Assembly (NCBI RefSeq): GCF_003568845.1
Contig: NZ_CP030126.1
Span: 895,001-959,000 of the forward strand
Direction: 5' to 3'
From: Indioceanicola profundi
GTDB lineage: Bacteria > Pseudomonadota > Alphaproteobacteria > Azospirillales > Azospirillaceae
Length of the DNA: 64,000 nucleotides
Part shown: positions 11,129-22,926 of the stretch, piece by piece
Numbering within the stretch: the stretch's first letter is position 1
Layout of the letters: each line of letters begins with the position of its first letter
Position numbers and translations under genes: made by a program
Notes under the pieces: model-generated
The model's database searches: none
What the model was told of the DNA's origin: nothing
The model's input: only the letters and a program-made list of their open reading frames with translations

Positions 11129-12421
11129 CTAGTGCCGGATGCCCGGCGATTCCATGGGCAGCCCGTTGCTGGCTGCTGTGACGTAGAGTTCTAGGTCCGC
11201 ATATTCCTTGGCGTCGGGCGGTAGCTCATCGGCGCGGACCTGGATGTTGCACCATTGCAGGCGCTTGCGGATGTCCCAGATCTCGTTCCGGCTGGTGCGC
11301 CAGGTCGGGAAGTGCGGAATCTGCCCGGCGGTCTCACCCAGATACTGGCCGCGAATCCACTTGTTGGCGCCCTTGTCCGGGCTGTGGCAGTCCACGCAGG
11401 CGAAATTCAACTGGCCGACCTTGGTGTTCACCATCTTCGTCGCGCGCTCCATGGCCGCCTTCGGACCCAGGCTCGACACGTCGACCTTGATCGGCATGCC
11501 GTTGGAGAGCGACCGCAGATAGATGGACATATGCAGGTTCTCGCTGGTCTGCATGATCCAGTCCGCGCCGGTCGTGGCCTTGGCATGCCGGGCCACGAAT
11601 TCCTCCACCCCGATCATCTTGTCCATGCCCTTGTGGTACTTGGGCATGGTCACGGCCCAGCCCTTCAGGGCATCGGGATTGGCGTGGCAGCTCGCACAGG
11701 ATTTGCCGTTCGGCCCATCCATGGCGAACAGCTCGGGCCCCGTATCGAACGCCTCCGCCGCCGGGTTCACGAACGGGTCGGTCCAGTCGCGGTCCTCGAC
11801 GGGCAGGGGGCGCTTTGACGGGTCGTCCAGCTCGTTCTTGAAGGTGGCCGGCGTCTTCAGCGTCTTCAGGAAGGCCACCATGTCGGCGACCTCCTGCTCC
11901 GAATAGAAGCCGTGCGCACCCCAGGGCGGCATCACGGACTCGGGGTTGTAGGCGCGCGGGTCCCAGATGTAGTTGAACAGATACTCCTCATCCGGGTTGG
12001 TGGCCCCGATCTGGGACAGGTCCACGCCGACATTGCCCGGCAGTTCCGCAGTCTCCGGCCCCATCACATGGCAGGCAAGGCAGCCGCCGCCGCGGGAGCG
12101 GTCGAAGGCCAGCTTCTTGCCATTGGCGGCATCGCCGTTCAGCGGCGCATCGATCTCTTTCACCGGGCCGGCGGGCGGGGCGGGGGTGCGGCTGGTATCC
12201 GCCAGGGTGTTGTACTTATCCCAACTGTTGTTGGTCCAACCCTTGTAGCGCGTCCAGGGGGCCTGGGCGGCCGAGCCCTCCGTCACCATGGGAACCTCGC
12301 CGAGGTCCTTGGCCACGGCCGAACCCGCCAGCCCGACCGGGCCAAGGGCGAGAAGGGTGACGGCCGACGCCTGCAGCGCCTTTCGGAACGCCACGCCAAT
12401 CGAGCGCGTATGTGGGTGCAT
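11129..12421 (-). CDS. soxXA: Fused SoxX-SoxA c-type cytochrome (one polypeptide)
   Basis: 430 residues. Sec signal peptide (about 1-37, LAGSAVAKD). The N-terminal half is SoxX: GGGCLACH haem site (114-118), GNVGVDLSQIG, and the distal Met region NPESVMPPWG (Met164). After a proline-rich linker (about 190-215) comes a complete diheme SoxA: CASCH (242-246), CVDCH (342-346), IRGQYLGETAGQIPHFPTWR and the active-site Cys391 in WCNIQVRA with the family ending ADLELYVTAASNG. SoxXA joins thiosulfate oxidatively to SoxY Cys. X and A are usually two proteins from separate genes; here one uninterrupted frame holds both. The ATG at 12421 has a GGAAGG site 6 bases upstream; the longer in-frame start at 12496 would put 25 residues ahead of the signal peptide. 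Confidence 0.9.
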   Translation of the reverse strand: MHPHTRSIGVAFRKALQASAVTLLALGPVGLAGSAVAKDLGEVPMVTEGSAAQAPWTRYKGWTNNSWDKYNTLADTSRTPAPPAGPVKEIDAPLNGDAANGKKLAFDRSRGGGCLACHVMGPETAELPGNVGVDLSQIGATNPDEEYLFNYIWDPRAYNPESVMPPWGAHGFYSEQEVADMVAFLKTLKTPATFKNELDDPSKRPLPVEDRDWTDPFVNPAAEAFDTGPELFAMDGPNGKSCASCHANPDALKGWAVTMPKYHKGMDKMIGVEEFVARHAKATTGADWIMQTSENLHMSIYLRSLSNGMPIKVDVSSLGPKAAMERATKMVNTKVGQLNFACVDCHSPDKGANKWIRGQYLGETAGQIPHFPTWRTSRNEIWDIRKRLQWCNIQVRADELPPDAKEYADLELYVTAASNGLPMESPGIRH

Positions 12422-12651
12422 GGACGCCTTCCAAACCTGCAACCCCGGCGCGGCACCGTAGCCAGGGGGAAAATCACCTTCGGCCGCATTCCACACCTGT
12501 GCCCGTGCGGTTCCAAGCCAGCCAAGACTGCCACTTTAGAACAGCCCTCGGCCCGTGCTCAATGCGAAAACTACAACGCGCCGGTGGATTTATCGCATGC
12601 CGCAGCTTATTCTACACATCGGTGCAGTATTATTTACCAGCGCCCGGCGCA

Positions 12652-15096
12652 TCAACGCCGGCCCGGCTTCCACCGGCGGAGCAGCAGCGCGTTCGTCACC
12701 ACGCTGACGCTGGAAAAGGCCATCGCCGCACCGGCCAGCACCGGCGAGAGCAGGCCCAGGGCGGCCAGCGGAATGCCCAGCGCATTGTAGACGAAGGCCC
12801 AGAACAGGTTCTGCCGGATCTTCGCATAGGTGCGGCGGGAGATGGCGAGCGCATCCGGCACCAGCGCCGGATCGCCCCGCATCAGGGTGATGCCGGCCGC
12901 ATGCATGGCCACGTCCGTACCGCTGCCCATGGCAAGGCCGACATGGGCGGCTGCAAGCGCCGGGGCGTCGTTGACGCCGTCGCCCACCATGCCGACCGTG
13001 CGCCCCTCCGCCTTCAGCCGCTCCACCGTCGCCGCCTTGTCCTCCGGCAGCACCTCCGCGATCACCTCCGCGATGCCCAGCGTGCGGGCGGCGGCGGCGG
13101 CGCTGCCCTTGTTGTCGCCGGTCAGCAGCACCGTGCGGATGCCGTCGGCGTTCAGGCGCGCCACCGCCTCCGCGGCTCCCGCCTTCACCGCGTCGCCGAA
13201 TCCCATCAGGCCCAGCAGCCGGTTGCTCCCGGCTTCCGCCAGCCAGGAGACGGTACGGCCATCGGCGGCCAGCCTGTCGGCCTCGGCCCGTAACGGCGAC
13301 AGCTCGACGCCCATCTCCTCCATCAGCCGGGTGCTGCCGAGACGCAGTTCACGGCCATCCACCAAAGCGGAAACGCCGCGGCCGGGAAGCGCCTTCAGGT
13401 CGGTGGCGGACGGCAGGGCGACGCCTTCCGCGCTTGCGGTGCGGCGCACGGCGTCGGCCAGCGGATGCTCGCTGCCGGACTGGACGGCGCCGGCGAGGCG
13501 CAGAAGCTCCGCCCGCTCCAGCCCGGGGGCGGGGAGCAGGGCGACCAGGGAGGGCTTGCCTTCCGTCAGGGTGCCGGTCTTGTCGAAGACGATGGTGTCC
13601 ACCGCCTGCGCCCGTTCCAGCGCCTCCGCATCCTTGATCAGCACGCCGGCCCGCGCGGCCACGCCGGTGCCGGCCATGATGGCGGTGGGGGTGGCAAGGC
13701 CAAGGGCGCAGGGGCAGGCGATGACCAGCACGCTGACGGCGGCCACGATGGCGAACTCCGCCGTCGCCCCGGCCATCAACCAGCCCAGCAGGGTCAGGGC
13801 GGCGATGCCCAGGACCACCGGCACGAACACCGCGCTGACCCGGTCCACCAGCCGCTGAAGCGGGGCCTTGGCGGCCTGGGCGCTTTCCACCAGCCGGATG
13901 ATGCGGGACAGCATCGTCTCCGCCCCGATGGCGGTGGTCTCCACCACCAGCCGGCCCTCGCCATTGACGGCACCGCCGGCCACCTTGGAACCGGCCTCCT
14001 TCGCCACCGGCAGGCTCTCGCCGGTCAGCATGCTTTCATCCACATGGGAGGCTCCCTCCACGACGGCTCCGTCCACGGGAATGCGCTCACCGGGGCGGAT
14101 CAGCACGCGGTCGCCGATGCGGACCTCGCCCACGGGCACCTCCACCTCCGCCCCGCCGCGCAGGATGCGGGCCCGGTCGGGCCGGAGGGCCGCCAGGGCG
14201 CGGATGGCGGCCGTGGTCTGCCGCTTGGCCCGCCCCTCCAGATACTTGCCCAGCAGCACCAGCGTGATGACGACGGCGGAGGCCTCGTAATAGAGGTGGG
14301 GCAGCATGGCGCCGGGGCTGGGCAGGGTGGCCGCCAGCTCCCAGGTGGACAGGCCCCAGGCCGCACTGGTGCCGATGGCGACCAGCAGGTCCATGTTGCC
14401 GGCCCCCGCGCGCACCGCCTTCCAGCCGGCCACATAGAAGCGCCAGCCCAGCCAGAACTGCACCGGTGTCGCCAGCAGGAACTGCAGCCAGCCCGGCGGC
14501 ATGACATGGATGCCCACGGCCTGCAGCAGCATGGGCAGGGCCAGCGGGGCGGTCAGCAGGGCGGCAAGGATGACATGGTTCCGCTCCGCCGTGACACGGC
14601 GCCGGTCCTCCGCATCCTCGGACGCGTCGGCATCGGGTGCGACCGGGGCCGCTTCGTAGCCGGCCTTCTCCACCGCGCGGATCAGGGCGTCCGGATCGGT
14701 GCCGAGCATTGTGACCGTGGCGGTCTCGGTTGCGAGATTCACCTGCGCGTCCAGCACGCCGGGAACCCTTTTCAGGGCCTTTTCCACCCGGCCCACGCAG
14801 GAGGTGCAGGTCATGCCGCGCACCTTCAGCTCGACCATGCTGTTTACCGGCGTGTAGCCGGCCTTGGTCACGGCGGCCGCCAGACCGGCGGGATCGGCCT
14901 GCGACCGTTCGACGGCGACGGAGGCATGTTCGGTCGCGATGTTCACCGCGGCCTCCGTCACGCCGGGAACCTTCCTCAGCGCCTTCTCCACCCGCCCGGC
15001 GCAGGAGGCGCAGGTCATTCCTTGGACCGCGAAGTCCAGTCGGACAGGATCGGGGGCCGCGTGTCTTACGGCGGTATCGGCGGGCATGGCGGACAT
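12652..15096 (-). CDS. copA: Copper-exporting P1B-type ATPase
   Basis: 814 residues. Two N-terminal heavy-metal domains with GMTCASC (about 26-32) and GMTCTSC (about 93-99), eight predicted membrane helices, TGES actuator loop, the CPC metal site (Cys461, Cys463), phosphorylated Asp505 in DKTGT, SEHPL and GDGVNDAP. This is the full set for Cu(+) export from the cytosol. ATG 15096 is favoured over 15129 because GGAGG sits 8 bases upstream. It lies on the same strand as, and 230 bases ahead of, soxXA; a regulatory tie is not evident, though copper and haem proteins in the periplasm often share neighbourhoods. No CueR-type regulator is adjacent. Confidence 0.93.
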
Positions 15097-15277
15097 GATC
15101 TCGTCCTCCGGGCTTGAGGCTGTTTCCACTGCCCATGACAGATGGGGCTTCCAGCAACTGGAAGGTCAAGGGGGTAAACTGCCGGGCGACCCGGCGCGTT
15201 GCGCTGGATCAGTTCCCATGGCCGGGATCATCCCGACACGCTATAAGCGGCACCTGTCCCGCCCTGCAGGTTCCCCG

Positions 15278-17251: not shown

Positions 17252-18742
17252 ATGGCGAACCCAGCACGGATCGGTGACAGCATCATCGAGCGCATCGAAC
17301 GCGCGCGGAGCCTCGACCGGCTCAGCCACAGCCTGGGAGAGGCGGTGGCGCTTCCGTTCCGGCTGATGGGCGGGCGTGGGAAGGAGGTCCGGACCGTGCT
17401 GCACGGGACCCGCTACGGCCATTCCCTCCACCCGACGGTCGTCACCGTTCCGATCGGGTCCTGGGCGGCATCGGTGCTGTTCGACCTGATGGACAGCATG
17501 CAGAGAGGAAAAGAAGGGCCGGCCTATGCCGATGCGGCGGACCTGACGCTCAAGGTCGGCTGCGCGGGGGCGGCGGGCGCGATCGCCACCGGGCTCGTCG
17601 ACTGGGAGAAGACGCATGGGGAGCCTCGGCGGCTTGGGCTTGTCCATGCCGCGACGAATGCGACGGCGTTGGCGCTGTTCCTGTCGTCGCTCTCCATGCG
17701 GCGGCGCGGGCAGCGCTCCAGCGCCAAGGCGGTGTCGGCCCTGGCGTTCGGGACCATGTTCGCGGGCGGTTATATGGGCGGGCATCTGGTCCACCGCCGC
17801 AATGTCAGCGCCGACCACGCCGACCGGAATCCGGCCCCGCGGGAGTTCGTGCCGGTGATGCGCGACGCCGAGCTGCGGGAAGGGCAGCCCCGCCTGGTGG
17901 AGGCGGATGGCGTGCGGATCGCGCTGGTGCGCAACAAGGGCAAGGTCCATGCGCTGGGCGACCGTTGTTCCCATTTCGGCGGACCGTTGTCGGAAGGCTG
18001 GGTGTTCCGGGACGGGCTGGTCTGCCCCTGGCACGGCTCGCGCTACTGCCTGAAGACCGGGCGCCCCATCGACGGACCGGCCACAGGCGTGCAGCCGCGC
18101 TTCGACGTTCGGGTGATGGACGGGATGATCGAGGTGCGGAAGCCCGAAACCCGCCGGCCGAACACGCCTCCACCCCGCGACCAGAGGGAACCGGCCCCGC
18201 CGCGCACTGCCCGGAAGGCGGATGAGGTGCTGTTCGAGCATCACCAGATCATGCGCAGCCTGTTCGACCGCATCGCCCTGACCGAACGGAACGACCCGCG
18301 CCGGCTTGAGCTGGTGGACGAGCTGGCTGGGGAGATGGACATGCATGAGAAGATCGAGCACGAAATCTTCTATCCCGCCGTTCGGCGGGTCACCGACTCC
18401 ATCCCGATCGCTGGAGCGGAGCATCAGCAGCTTGCCGACCAGCTTGCCATCACGCTGACCCTCGATCCGTCCACCGCGGAGTTCGATGACCATCTCCGCG
18501 CCCTCCGGTCCGCCCTGGAGCATCATGCCGGGTCGGAGGAGCGGGAGATGTTCCCGGATGCCCAGAATCTGGGGGACACAGAGCTGCGGCGGCTGGGCAT
18601 GCGGATGGAACGGCGGCTGGAGGATTTGCGCCGCTCCCGCGTGCAGAACCTGATCCGGCTTGGCCGTCAGCTCATGCTGGAGCGGGGGCGCGGGCGGATG
18701 GGAAGGGCGATGAGCGGGTCGCTGATGTCGGCCGAACGCTGA
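17252..18742 (+). CDS. DUF2231 membrane domain - Rieske [2Fe-2S] - hemerythrin fusion protein
   Basis: 496 residues, three modules. About 45-190: DUF2231-type membrane domain (HPTVVTVPIGSWAASVLFDLM, then several helices). About 205-290: Rieske domain with exact ligands Cys239-x-His241 and Cys258-x2-His261. About 325-470: HHE hemerythrin domain with His330, His365, His370, Glu371, His391 and His424 in the expected order. A basic helical tail ends the protein. DUF2231-Rieske pairs are known as haem/redox-type membrane proteins; adding hemerythrin suggests O2 or NO sensing, or iron handling coupled to electron transfer (inference). ATG 17252 follows AGGAAAGG; a longer frame reaches into the csp leader without support. 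Confidence 0.8.
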   Translation: MANPARIGDSIIERIERARSLDRLSHSLGEAVALPFRLMGGRGKEVRTVLHGTRYGHSLHPTVVTVPIGSWAASVLFDLMDSMQRGKEGPAYADAADLTLKVGCAGAAGAIATGLVDWEKTHGEPRRLGLVHAATNATALALFLSSLSMRRRGQRSSAKAVSALAFGTMFAGGYMGGHLVHRRNVSADHADRNPAPREFVPVMRDAELREGQPRLVEADGVRIALVRNKGKVHALGDRCSHFGGPLSEGWVFRDGLVCPWHGSRYCLKTGRPIDGPATGVQPRFDVRVMDGMIEVRKPETRRPNTPPPRDQREPAPPRTARKADEVLFEHHQIMRSLFDRIALTERNDPRRLELVDELAGEMDMHEKIEHEIFYPAVRRVTDSIPIAGAEHQQLADQLAITLTLDPSTAEFDDHLRALRSALEHHAGSEEREMFPDAQNLGDTELRRLGMRMERRLEDLRRSRVQNLIRLGRQLMLERGRGRMGRAMSGSLMSAER

Positions 18743-18813: not shown

Positions 18814-19983
18814 ATGCCCCCGGTAATCGGCATCTCAGGCTCCTACGGCGGCTTGAACCTGGGGGATGAGGCGATCCTCTCCTCCGCTATCCAGCAGCTC
18901 CGCGCCGCATGTCCAGGGGTGGAGATCGTGGTGTTCTCCCGCAATGCGGAGCATACAAGGCGGCACCATGATGTGGACCGGGCGCTGAACGCCCGCACCT
19001 CCATGCGCCAGCAGATCCTGCCGGAAGTACAGCGGCTGAACCTGCTGCTGCTGGGCGGGGGCGGCATCCTCTATGACACGGAGGCCCAGGCCTATCTGCG
19101 GGAGGTGGAGCTGGCCCATGAGCTGGGCATCCCGACCTTCGCCTTCGCCGTCGGCATCGGCCCGCTGAAGGACCGGGATGAACGGATCGCCGTTCGCAAC
19201 GGCCTGAACCGGATGGCCGGCATCACCGTGCGCGAGGTCACGGCCAAGCGGCTGTGCGAGGATATCGGCGTGCAGGTTCCGGTGGAGGTCACCGCCGACC
19301 CGGCCCTGCTGCTGAGGCCGGAGCCCTTCACCGACGAGATGCTGGCGGCGGAGGGCATTCCAACCGACCGGCCGCTGGTGGGCATTTCCGTGCGGGAGCG
19401 GGGGGCCGCGGCTCCCGGCCTGACAGCGTCCGACTATCACGATCTGGTGGCCGATGTGGCCGACTTCATGATCCAGCGCTTCGATGCCGAACCGGTGTTC
19501 GTTCCGATGGAGCGGGTGGACCGCAACGAATCCCACCGGGTGATCTCCCGCATGGCGCATCCGGACCGCGCCTATGTGCTGAAGCGTGATTACAGGCCGC
19601 AGCAGATCATGGGGTTGGCGCAACGGCTGGAACTGGTGGCCGGGATGCGGTTGCACTTCCTGATCTTCGCCGCTGTCACAGGCACGCCGCTGATCGCGCT
19701 GCCCTATGCGTCCAAGGTACAGGATCTGGTGTCCAGCCTGGGCATCGAACACATGCCGGTCGAAACGGCAAAGGCCGGAGCATTCCTGGCGCGGCTGGAT
19801 CGGCTGTGGGACACGCGCAAGGACCAGAAGGCCGTCATCGCCGAACGTCTGGGGCAGGTGCAGCAGTTGGCGCGACGGACTGTTCCCCTGGCGCTGGCGA
19901 CCATCGGCCATGGGCCGGGCGCCAACAGCATCCAGGTACAGCGCGTGGGAGAAGACCTTGCCAATCCTCCAGTCGCCTTCTGA
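18814..19983 (+). CDS. Polysaccharide pyruvyl transferase family protein (CsaB-like)
   Basis: 389 residues. N-terminal GSYGGLNLGDEAIL loop and the LLLLGGGGILYD stretch, then the second Rossmann-like half with VGISVRERG, EPVFVPME and AGMRLHFLIFAA, all characteristic of the pyruvyl-transferase fold. Members ketalise sugars of exopolysaccharides or cell-wall polymers with pyruvate from phosphoenolpyruvate. Its partner glycan is unknown; two glucan-type synthases lie elsewhere in this window. The last 26 bases overlap the next gene, suggesting translational coupling with the FAD oxidoreductase. Confidence 0.8.
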   Translation: MPPVIGISGSYGGLNLGDEAILSSAIQQLRAACPGVEIVVFSRNAEHTRRHHDVDRALNARTSMRQQILPEVQRLNLLLLGGGGILYDTEAQAYLREVELAHELGIPTFAFAVGIGPLKDRDERIAVRNGLNRMAGITVREVTAKRLCEDIGVQVPVEVTADPALLLRPEPFTDEMLAAEGIPTDRPLVGISVRERGAAAPGLTASDYHDLVADVADFMIQRFDAEPVFVPMERVDRNESHRVISRMAHPDRAYVLKRDYRPQQIMGLAQRLELVAGMRLHFLIFAAVTGTPLIALPYASKVQDLVSSLGIEHMPVETAKAGAFLARLDRLWDTRKDQKAVIAERLGQVQQLARRTVPLALATIGHGPGANSIQVQRVGEDLANPPVAF

Positions 19984-21370
19984 GGTTGAAACCGTTCAGC
20001 TCCCGGCGCGGGAGGCGCCTGTCCTGGCAAGCTGTGACGTGCTGGTGGTCGGCGGCGGCCCCTCCGGCATGGGGGCGGCCATGGGGGCCGCCTGGGCCGG
20101 GGCGGATACGATCCTGACGGAGCGGTTCGGATTCCTTGGCGGCAATCCCACAGCCAGTCTCGTGAACCCGCTGATGTCCTGGCACACCAGCAATGGCAAG
20201 CCGCTGCTGAACGAGGACAAGACCCGCCTGCTGCCCCAAGACCACGGGCCCGGAGACCCGGTGGTGGCGGGGGCCATGCTGCATTTCGTGAACCTGCTGC
20301 TGGAGGCGGGCGGCGCCATTCCGCCCAGCATCACCACCGGCTACACGGTTCCGTTCGATCCGGAAACCTACAAGGCCGTGGCGCTGGAAGCGGTGGATGC
20401 CGCCGGGGCCAGGGTGCTGCTGCACGCCTTCGCCACCGGCCCGCTGGGGCCGCGCTGCAAGCCGGAGGGTGTGGTCTATGAGGGGAAGGCCGGGCCTTAC
20501 GTGATCAAGGCCAGAGCCATCGTGGACGGGTCCGGCGATGGCGACATCGCGGCCAAGGCGGGGGCAGACTACCATGTGGGACGGGAGGGCGACGGGCTGG
20601 TCCAGCCCATGACGCTGATGTTCCGGATCGGCGATTTCGACCGCGACGCCTTCGCCGACTATGTGCGGGATCACCCGGACCAGTGGCGCGGGGTGCATGG
20701 CCTCTGGGATCTGGTGCGGCAGGCGACGGAGGCCGGCGACCTCACCATGCCGCGCGAGGACATCCTGTTCTTCGCCACCCCGCATCCGCGGGAGCTGTCG
20801 GTGAACTGCACCCGTGTCACCGGCGGGCTCGCCACCAACGTGCTGGACATCTCCCGTGCCGAGATCGAGGCCCGGCGGCAGATGCGGGAGATCATGGCCT
20901 TCCTGGTCAAATATGTGCCGGGCTTCAAGGACGCCTATGTGATCCAGGCCGGCGTGAATATCGGCGTCAGGGAGACGCGGCGCATCGTCGGCGACTACAC
21001 GCTGACGGCGGAGGATGTGCTGGGGGCGGCCAAGTTCCCGGACGCCATCGCGCGCGCCAGCTATCCGGTGGATATCCACAATCCCACCGGCAAGGGCACC
21101 GTGCTGAAGCGGCTGCCGCCCGGCGAATGGTACGAGGTGCCTTATCGCTGCCTGTTGCCCAAAGGCGTCGACAACCTTCTGGTCGCTGGCCGCAGCATCA
21201 GCGGCACGCACGAGGCCCATTCCAGCTATCGGGTCACGCCGACTGCCGTGGCAACCGGGCAGGCTGCCGGCGTGGCCGCCGCGCTGGCGGTGCGGACCGG
21301 CCGGACCCCGCGGGACGTTCCGGTGGAGGAGGTCAGGGCGGAGCTGCGGCGGCAGGGAGCGATCATCTAG
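19958..21370 (+). CDS. FAD-dependent oxidoreductase
   Basis: 470 residues. Dinucleotide-binding loop DVLVVGGGPSGMGAAMGAAWAGA close to the N terminus, FLGGNPTASLVNPLMSWH, IVDGSGDGDIAAKAGADY and a C-terminal FAD-contacting segment NLLVAGRSISGTHEAHSSYRV; this is the FAD_oxidored (PF12831-like) group, whose substrates are mostly unknown. No ATG fits: the TTG at 19958 is preceded by GGAG at a 7-8 base distance and leaves a 26-base overlap with the pyruvyl-transferase gene. It is convergent with egtB, 20 bases away. Confidence 0.8.
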   Translation: MPILQSPSEVETVQLPAREAPVLASCDVLVVGGGPSGMGAAMGAAWAGADTILTERFGFLGGNPTASLVNPLMSWHTSNGKPLLNEDKTRLLPQDHGPGDPVVAGAMLHFVNLLLEAGGAIPPSITTGYTVPFDPETYKAVALEAVDAAGARVLLHAFATGPLGPRCKPEGVVYEGKAGPYVIKARAIVDGSGDGDIAAKAGADYHVGREGDGLVQPMTLMFRIGDFDRDAFADYVRDHPDQWRGVHGLWDLVRQATEAGDLTMPREDILFFATPHPRELSVNCTRVTGGLATNVLDISRAEIEARRQMREIMAFLVKYVPGFKDAYVIQAGVNIGVRETRRIVGDYTLTAEDVLGAAKFPDAIARASYPVDIHNPTGKGTVLKRLPPGEWYEVPYRCLLPKGVDNLLVAGRSISGTHEAHSSYRVTPTAVATGQAAGVAAALAVRTGRTPRDVPVEEVRAELRRQGAII

Positions 21371-21390: not shown

Positions 21391-22731
21391 TCACGCATCC
21401 TCCGCCAGCCGGATGCAGGTCATCTGCCAGCGGCTGCCGGGGGCGAGGTGGTGGCGGTAGGTGGCGCGGATCATCTCGCCGGGCGTGAGGGCGCTGCCGC
21501 CGCGCAGGACCATGTGGCCGGCGCCCAGCCGCGGCATGGCGAACTCGCCCACTGCGAACGGTCCCGGTTTGTGGCGGGGGTAGGGGGTCAGGGGGCTCTG
21601 CGTCCATTCCCAGCCGTCGCCATACATCTGCCAGGGACCCTCGCCGGCACAGGCGGCAGTGACGGGATGCAGCCGCCCATAGTCCAGCAGATTGCCGGTA
21701 CGGCGATGGCCGGCGGCCATCACCTCCCATTCCATCTCCGTCGGCAGGCGCTTGCCGGACCAGCGGGCGAAGGCGTCGGCCTCGAACCAGCTCAGATGGC
21801 AGACCGGTTCCTCCCCATCGACCAGCCGCATGCCGGACAGGGTGAACTGGTGCCAGAGGCCGCCATGCTTGAACCAGTAGAGCGGAGCCTTCCAGCCCTC
21901 CTGCTGGGCCAAGGCCCAGCCTTCCGGCCGCCAGAAGGAAGCGGTGGAATAGCCCCCATCCTCCATGAATTCCTGGTACTCGGTGCAGGTGACCAGCCGG
22001 CCGGCCATGCGGAAGGGCGGCAGGATGACGGGATGCCGCGGCTGCTCCAGGTCGAAGCTGAAGCCGGCGCCGCCATATCCGATTTCGGCTGTGCCTCCCG
22101 GATGGGCGATCCAACTCTGCCCAGGGGCGGAAGTCAGCGGCGTCGGCTGGCTTTCCTGATAGGCGGGACGCAGCGGGTTGGACCAGAAGGCATGCTTGAT
22201 GTCGGATAGGATCAGTTCCTGATGCTGCTCCTCATGGGTGAGGGCGAGTTCGATCCAGCCGGCGATCTGGGGCCAGATGCCCGTCGACGCTTCTTCGATC
22301 AGTCTCATCACCGCCGCGTTCACATGTTCCCGCCAGCGGCTGACGTCGCTCAGGGCCGGGCGGCTCAGCAGATGGCGGGAGGCGGCCGGGTGGGCGGTTT
22401 CCGCTGGTTCCTTCAAGGCGTTGAACAGATAGGTGAACCGGTCGTCGAAAGCGGTGTAGCCGACCAGGAAGCGTTCCAGCACCAGCTTCTCCAGAAGCCA
22501 GCAGGTGTGTCCGAGATGCCATTTGACCGGGCTGGCCTCTGGCATGGACTGGACGAGTTGATCCTCGGGCGTCAGGCGCGACGCCAGCAGTCCGCTGTTG
22601 CCGCGCACCCGGCGGAAGCGGGCGGCCAGGACCGACCGATCCGGTGTTGCGGTTCCTCCGGCGTCGCCGGACATGCCGGGACCTACCGCGCCCTGGCGGC
22701 TTGCGTGCCGATCCGGTCTGGCGCCGAGCAT
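21391..22731 (-). CDS. egtB: Ergothioneine biosynthesis protein EgtB (sulfoxide synthase)
   Basis: 446 residues. N-terminal DinB-like domain with iron-binding His residues in SPVKWHLGHTCWLLE and THEEQHQEL, followed by the formylglycine-generating-type domain (GKRLPTEMEWEVMAA, GDGWEWTQSP, VLRGGSALTP, RATYRHHLAP). EgtB couples trimethylhistidine to gamma-glutamylcysteine or cysteine using O2 and Fe(II). The methyltransferase EgtD normally lies next door but is absent here. Start 22731 is chosen for its AGGGAGAAG site; 22674 is a possible shorter start. Confidence 0.88.
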   Translation of the reverse strand: MLGARPDRHASRQGAVGPGMSGDAGGTATPDRSVLAARFRRVRGNSGLLASRLTPEDQLVQSMPEASPVKWHLGHTCWLLEKLVLERFLVGYTAFDDRFTYLFNALKEPAETAHPAASRHLLSRPALSDVSRWREHVNAAVMRLIEEASTGIWPQIAGWIELALTHEEQHQELILSDIKHAFWSNPLRPAYQESQPTPLTSAPGQSWIAHPGGTAEIGYGGAGFSFDLEQPRHPVILPPFRMAGRLVTCTEYQEFMEDGGYSTASFWRPEGWALAQQEGWKAPLYWFKHGGLWHQFTLSGMRLVDGEEPVCHLSWFEADAFARWSGKRLPTEMEWEVMAAGHRRTGNLLDYGRLHPVTAACAGEGPWQMYGDGWEWTQSPLTPYPRHKPGPFAVGEFAMPRLGAGHMVLRGGSALTPGEMIRATYRHHLAPGSRWQMTCIRLAEDA

Positions 22732-22926
22732 CGGGCTTCTCCCTGCCTGCGTACCCCGCTTGGATTCTCCGGTCGTCGAGCCGGTCCGCGGTTCACACCA
22801 TTGAACGGCAGCGCCAAACCGCAGTTCCACGGCGCACATTAGCTGGCGCTCAAGCTCTTGGAGGTAGGGTCCGACCACCCAGGCGGAGCAGACGAGACGG
22901 GTAAGGCTTCGAGCGGTTATCCAGAG

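Follow-up and report, generated by a model that had tools for sequence, protein, structure and literature searches.

The window, a 64,000-nucleotide stretch of the Indioceanicola profundi genome (NZ_CP030126.1, positions 895,001 to 959,000), carries on its forward strand an open reading frame which starts with ATG at 17252 and stops at 18740-18742, giving a product of 496 amino acids. Pfam assigns this chain a DUF2231, a Rieske and a Hemerythrin domain, each above its curated cut-off, in agreement with the first-pass annotation, which had placed a membrane DUF2231 domain, a Rieske cluster and a C-terminal hemerythrin in one chain. The features are as follows.

17252..18742, + strand, whole DUF2231-Rieske-hemerythrin gene (496 aa; ORF, Pfam and ortholog alignment)
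17417..17809, + strand, DUF2231 (PF09990) membrane domain (residues 56-186; Pfam)
17783..17785, + strand, H178 codon, late in the fourth of the predicted TM helices
17846..18091, + strand, Rieske [2Fe-2S] domain of ferredoxin type (residues 199-280; Pfam, NCBIfam and PDB search)
18152..18217, + strand, Pro/Arg-rich linker (residues about 301-322), variable between orthologs
18221..18556, + strand, hemerythrin-like (PF01814) di-iron domain (residues 324-435; Pfam)
18581..18730, + strand, basic C-terminal helix (residues about 444-493), overlapping the stretch that aligns with the C-terminal portion of the M. kansasii HLP

An artefact of composition is ruled out for each of the three domains by its score above cut-off and by the retention of the domains in orthologs. 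The ATG at 17252 is probably the start, because the orthologs begin at the same alignment column. Comparison with the copy in a family relative (G424) gave codon-position differences of 0.21/0.14/0.51 over 495 aligned codons, which indicates that the gene is under selection as a single chain. No obvious signal or twin-arginine sequence was seen by eye in the 496-residue protein. The AF2 model of the whole chain (mean pLDDT 45) was used solely for the rough order of helices and strands; in it, four long helices precede the Rieske strands and a helical bundle follows the linker.

The Rieske domain (PF00355, E 8e-19, 67.8 bits against a cut-off of 20.3) possesses all four ligands, as the annotation had stated; they are C239, H241, C258 and H261, and these are kept in the orthologs save for the positions at a frameshift in Caenispirillum salinarum. 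After the HLP described below, its best sequence match in the PDB is BphF (1fqt, E 3.1e-8). The C-x-H and C-x-x-H ligands are those of the soluble Rieske-type ferredoxins (BphF, HcaC, CarAc), and the HcaC model matches with an E-value of 4.3e-18 and 65.5 bits, under its cut-off of 150. Those ferredoxins are unfused and soluble, whereas the domain here is membrane-anchored and fused. The high-potential Rieske proteins of bc1/b6f complexes carry extra disulfide cysteines beside the ligands, in the pattern CTHLGC...CPCHGS; the protein here reads CSHFGG...CPWHGS and lacks them. A low or middling potential, with electrons supplied from NAD(P)H or a ferredoxin, would therefore be no less probable than reduction by quinol.

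The DUF2231 domain (PF09990, E 3.7e-18, 66.4 bits against a cut-off of 26.4) covers profile positions 1-136 of 139. Residues H60, D78, D117, W118, H132 and H178 are invariant in all ten DUF2231-Rieske proteins compared, with H57 present in nine and H51 in eight of them. In a 16-row alignment, H178 and W118 occur in all six Rieske-fused DUF2231 domains and in none of the ten unfused ones, the latter being a choice of ten among the fetched loci, two of them gapped at position 178; D78 is found in 16/16 rows and H60 in 14/16. The H178/W118 pattern suggests that the DUF2231 domain changed alongside the fusion to Rieske. Three helices stand out as clear peaks in a hydropathy scan (near residues 70, 107 and 138); a fourth, at about 155-191, is seen in the low-confidence AF2 model only (pLDDT 45). 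This model puts H60 at the start of the first long helix and H132 near that of the third, D117 toward the end of the second, and H178 past the midpoint of the fourth. Assuming a simple four-helix topology, H60, D117, H132 and H178 would share one face of the membrane, that from which the Rieske domain emerges. Perhaps the His/Asp cluster forms a heme, metal or quinone site, although this is a guess. The loop charges of the helices conflict and would fit either side of the membrane.

The third domain (PF01814, E 3.1e-12, 47.5 bits against a cut-off of 25.3) has a complete di-iron set, comprising H330/H331, H365-xxx-E369, H391 and H425-xxx-E429, which bears out the histidine set claimed in the annotation and is identical in both other three-part copies. 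It fits the H-HxxxE-H-HxxxE motif described for YtfE-type proteins (PMC12753109). By sequence, the nearest solved structure is 6q09, a hemerythrin-like protein (HLP) of Mycobacterium kansasii, with an E-value of 3e-25 for the whole protein; residues 314-496 gave 4.4e-26, and 6q09 was then the sole PDB match at E<=1e-5. Foldseek, run on an AF2 domain model with a mean pLDDT of 61, likewise placed 6q09 first (E 3.4e-5, 38% identity), as the sole match at E<=0.001. The matches listed by VIA-align 2 are mostly generic four-helix bundles; 6q09 stands at rank 30 among generic helical bundles (Z 11.7, rmsd 3.4, 148 aligned) and is the only row above 30% identity among the matches listed, the DcrH hemerythrin domain giving Z 12.5, rmsd 3.0 and 117 aligned residues at 13% identity. 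The M. kansasii HLP/Rv2633c class (6q09, 6tyj, 6u3l) has the same His/Glu set, and the alignment takes in the C-terminal helix as well as the four-helix bundle. On sequence grounds, then, the C-terminal domain is a relative of the HLPs outside mycobacteria, and it is nearer to an HLP with NO-peroxidase activity than to oxygen-carrying or DcrH-type sensor hemerythrins.

The M. kansasii HLP is reported to possess NO peroxidase and weak catalase activity, and the class is said to be confined to certain mycobacteria (PMC8913304). It consists of one soluble domain and has a tyrosine ligand, which is said to be unique to mycobacterial HLPs (PMC8913304), whereas the domain here is fused to a membrane Rieske protein. 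F373-Y374 aligns to the Tyr-Tyr pair of the M. kansasii protein, so that the special ligand may be missing, owing to Phe373 at one of the two adjacent tyrosine positions. Helix geometry suggests that the iron-binding tyrosine is the position occupied by Phe here.

Full-length relatives were found, using the whole protein as query, in two of 82 family genomes, that of the window included; the ortholog in the one positive genome among the other 81 is 72% identical. No full-length copy outside the window genome was detected in samples of the class (385 genomes) and the phylum (398 genomes), or outside C. salinarum among 297 genomes around that species; these samples and that of the family overlap. 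Short peptide patterns, run against 84,980 species genomes and able to detect close relatives only, added a single full-length copy, in Caenispirillum salinarum AK4 (L033:4986-6460). This copy lies in two frames, with the frameshift inside the Rieske domain. Its halves show third-position-biased codon differences of 0.30/0.23/0.48 (239 codons) and 0.28/0.20/0.47 (246 codons), so both still look selected, and the split would be a sequencing error or a recent break. C. salinarum (G821) has 22 hemerythrin-domain matches compared to four in the window genome. Among 72,556 plasmid records 135 match some part of the query and none covers 80% of it, and no relative of the fusion protein was found among viral contigs and phage records. 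A DUF2231-Rieske profile matches 50 of the 385 class genomes at E<=1e-15, but the matches listed outside the window genome all begin at model position 136 or later, that is, mainly in the Rieske part. The presence of copies in two members of one family and in a distant third genome suggests gene transfer or repeated loss.

The annotation had also held that DUF2231-Rieske pairs are known and that the three-part form is uncommon, and both statements agree with these surveys. The pairs are two-part proteins of actinomycetes (e.g. WP_266773471.1, on a plasmid of Streptomyces sp. NBC_00257) with the same domain order, about 34-38% identity, and the same invariant H60, D117, W118, H132, H178 and Rieske ligands; the three fetched whole have about 306-316 amino acids and end after the Rieske domain, lacking hemerythrin by Pfam. 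Next to this form the three-part protein is rare in the genome samples and plasmid records. In the literature searched we found no assigned function for DUF2231, no mention of COG4244 (which we take to be its COG number), no pairing of DUF2231 with Rieske or hemerythrin, and no Rieske-hemerythrin fusion. The main text of a survey of 56 hemerythrin architectures does not contain the terms Rieske or DUF (PMC4919030). As far as these searches go, the three-part fusion is a new and rare architecture, built from parts already known.

In three of six actinomycete plasmid records searched, the two-part gene has a hemerythrin gene no more than 8 kb away, at distances of 3.9, 4.4 and 7.0 kb. The chance of this is about 3e-4 if the records are independent, which they are not fully, two being near-identical Streptomyces loci; moreover, one hemerythrin match is partial, and the 8-kb cut-off was set after 8-kb flanks had been fetched. 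About 1-2 kb from a Streptomyces DUF2231-Rieske gene are genes for a CDGSH iron-sulfur protein and an iron-containing redox enzyme (L050:5684-6844), beside which a gas-vesicle cluster is located.

In the window the fusion gene lies between an opposite-strand DUF6481 gene and a pair coding for a polysaccharide pyruvyl transferase and an FAD oxidoreductase (18814-21370, + strand), which are a few bases apart. The G424 copy is near one unfused DUF2231 gene, several that are sorbosone-dehydrogenase-like, and genes for a diacylglycerol kinase and an alcohol dehydrogenase. That of C. salinarum is flanked by an acyl-CoA-synthetase-like gene and, as the next gene, a protoglobin chemoreceptor. The three loci have no neighbour in common, and therefore no electron donor is indicated. 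When 11 window genes were compared to 36 loci, including a 19-kb stretch of G424, only the fusion gene was matched well; one glycosyltransferase match of 28% was also recorded. The pyruvyl transferase and FAD oxidoreductase genes also adjoin each other in two relatives (G435 and G385); the 12-kb stretches searched there gave no hit to the fusion gene, and no full-length copy was detected genome-wide. An operon with this pair was therefore rejected, and the neighbourhood is uninformative on function.

A scan for sigma-70 promoters gave none. An EcfG-type general-stress promoter was considered and rejected, since the motif has no match upstream of 17252 and five matches in the window compared to 2.9 expected. 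A link to denitrification was likewise unsupported in two of the three genomes on the strength of the Cu-type nitrite reductase, the one enzyme looked for, which had no match at cut-off in the window genome or C. salinarum and is present in the third genome.

From these data we tentatively propose, as the best of several possible readings, that the protein is a membrane-tethered single-chain NO, peroxide or O2 reductase with an internal relay from Rieske to di-iron. The four-helix DUF2231 domain would anchor it in the membrane and may hold a redox or metal site, with H60, D117, H132 and H178 on the membrane face beside the Rieske domain. The ferredoxin-type cluster, on what may be the cytoplasmic side, would pass electrons on to the hemerythrin-like centre. 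If loaded with iron, that centre would consume NO, H2O2 or O2 by NO-peroxidase- or peroxidase-like turnover, as in the M. kansasii relative; unlike in the latter, the electron supply would be built in. This proposal is favoured by the three domains above their cut-offs, the kept ligands, the kinship with 6q09, the H178/W118 pattern and the co-location in three of six records, and it is weakened by Phe373, the lack of a common neighbour, the presence of Cu-nitrite-reductase in one of three genomes only, and the conflicting loop charges. The redox detoxification role suggested in the annotation thereby gains support and is sharpened, since the C-terminal domain appears closest to the NO-peroxidase HLP. 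A more ambitious version, which we consider rather doubtful, is that of a self-contained membrane NO/peroxide reductase in which a redox-active DUF2231 domain takes electrons from the membrane pool and hands them through Rieske to the HLP-type di-iron centre, making NO-peroxidase chemistry catalytic and respiration-linked.

The annotation had alternatively suggested a sensor. In a membrane-bound O2, NO or redox sensor the di-iron site would bind gas and relay the change through Rieske and DUF2231, or to a partner. Chemoreceptors and c-di-GMP enzymes are known to use hemerythrin domains for sensing (PMC9388753), and the protoglobin chemoreceptor next to the C. salinarum copy is in keeping with this; however, that neighbour is absent from the other two loci, Pfam finds no output domain in the chain, no conserved neighbour points to signalling, and the solved structure closest to the domain is that of an enzyme rather than DcrH. 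The sensor proposal thus fared less well, and we regard it as unlikely. A still less probable role is that of a DUF2231-Rieske electron carrier, in which the hemerythrin merely stores O2 or protects the cluster and a partner oxygenase or dehydrogenase does the work. The match to BphF puts the Rieske domain with the soluble ferredoxins that supply dioxygenases, and near the G424 copy an unfused DUF2231 adjoins a sorbosone-dehydrogenase-like gene, but no oxygenase gene is conserved beside the three loci.

Two further roles seem quite improbable. The ligand motif shared with YtfE-type proteins would suit RIC/YtfE-like repair, in which the di-iron domain donates iron to, or protects, the Rieske or other membrane Fe-S proteins, and RIC members are reported as iron donors to Fe-S clusters (PMC3989283, PMC8117158); the match to the NCBIfam RIC model (TIGR03652), however, is negligible, covering residues 406-440 only (E 0.0049, 16.7 bits against a cut-off of 204.7). 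With similarly low probability the protein may be a membrane-tethered, stress-induced dormancy factor like PA2171 of Pseudomonas aeruginosa, a persister protein for which five helices, binding to ribosomes and to FtsZ, and repression of translation are described (PMC13041383). The PA2171 family model (NF053874) matches residues 323-462 (E 4.8e-18), and the C-terminal tail is basic, but at 65.4 bits the match is far below the cut-off of 190, which places the domain outside the family by that model, and the Rieske ligands and the DUF2231 histidine set would be needless.

DUF2231 is found in many bacteria, and its fusion to Rieske and di-iron domains, together with a histidine confined to the Rieske-fused form, hints directly at a part in electron transfer. 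Were the respiration-linked reductase with a redox-active DUF2231 domain borne out, DUF2231 would gain a first assigned function, that of a membrane redox carrier; should the di-iron domain act like its mycobacterial relative, HLP-type removal of NO or peroxide would be coupled to an electron carrier outside mycobacteria. In G424 the unfused DUF2231 gene stands directly before the sorbosone-dehydrogenase-like gene (L052:9797-11592), shortly upstream of the three-part gene, which may be another hint that DUF2231 pairs with redox enzymes.

Elsewhere in the window, a SoxA/TsdA-type cytochrome c is encoded at 11132-12496 (- strand), adjoining a metal P-type ATPase with two HMA domains (12655-15129, - strand). 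At 21394-22878 (- strand) there is a gene for a DinB_2 and FGE-sulfatase protein, presumably the domain pair of EgtB-like ergothioneine enzymes.
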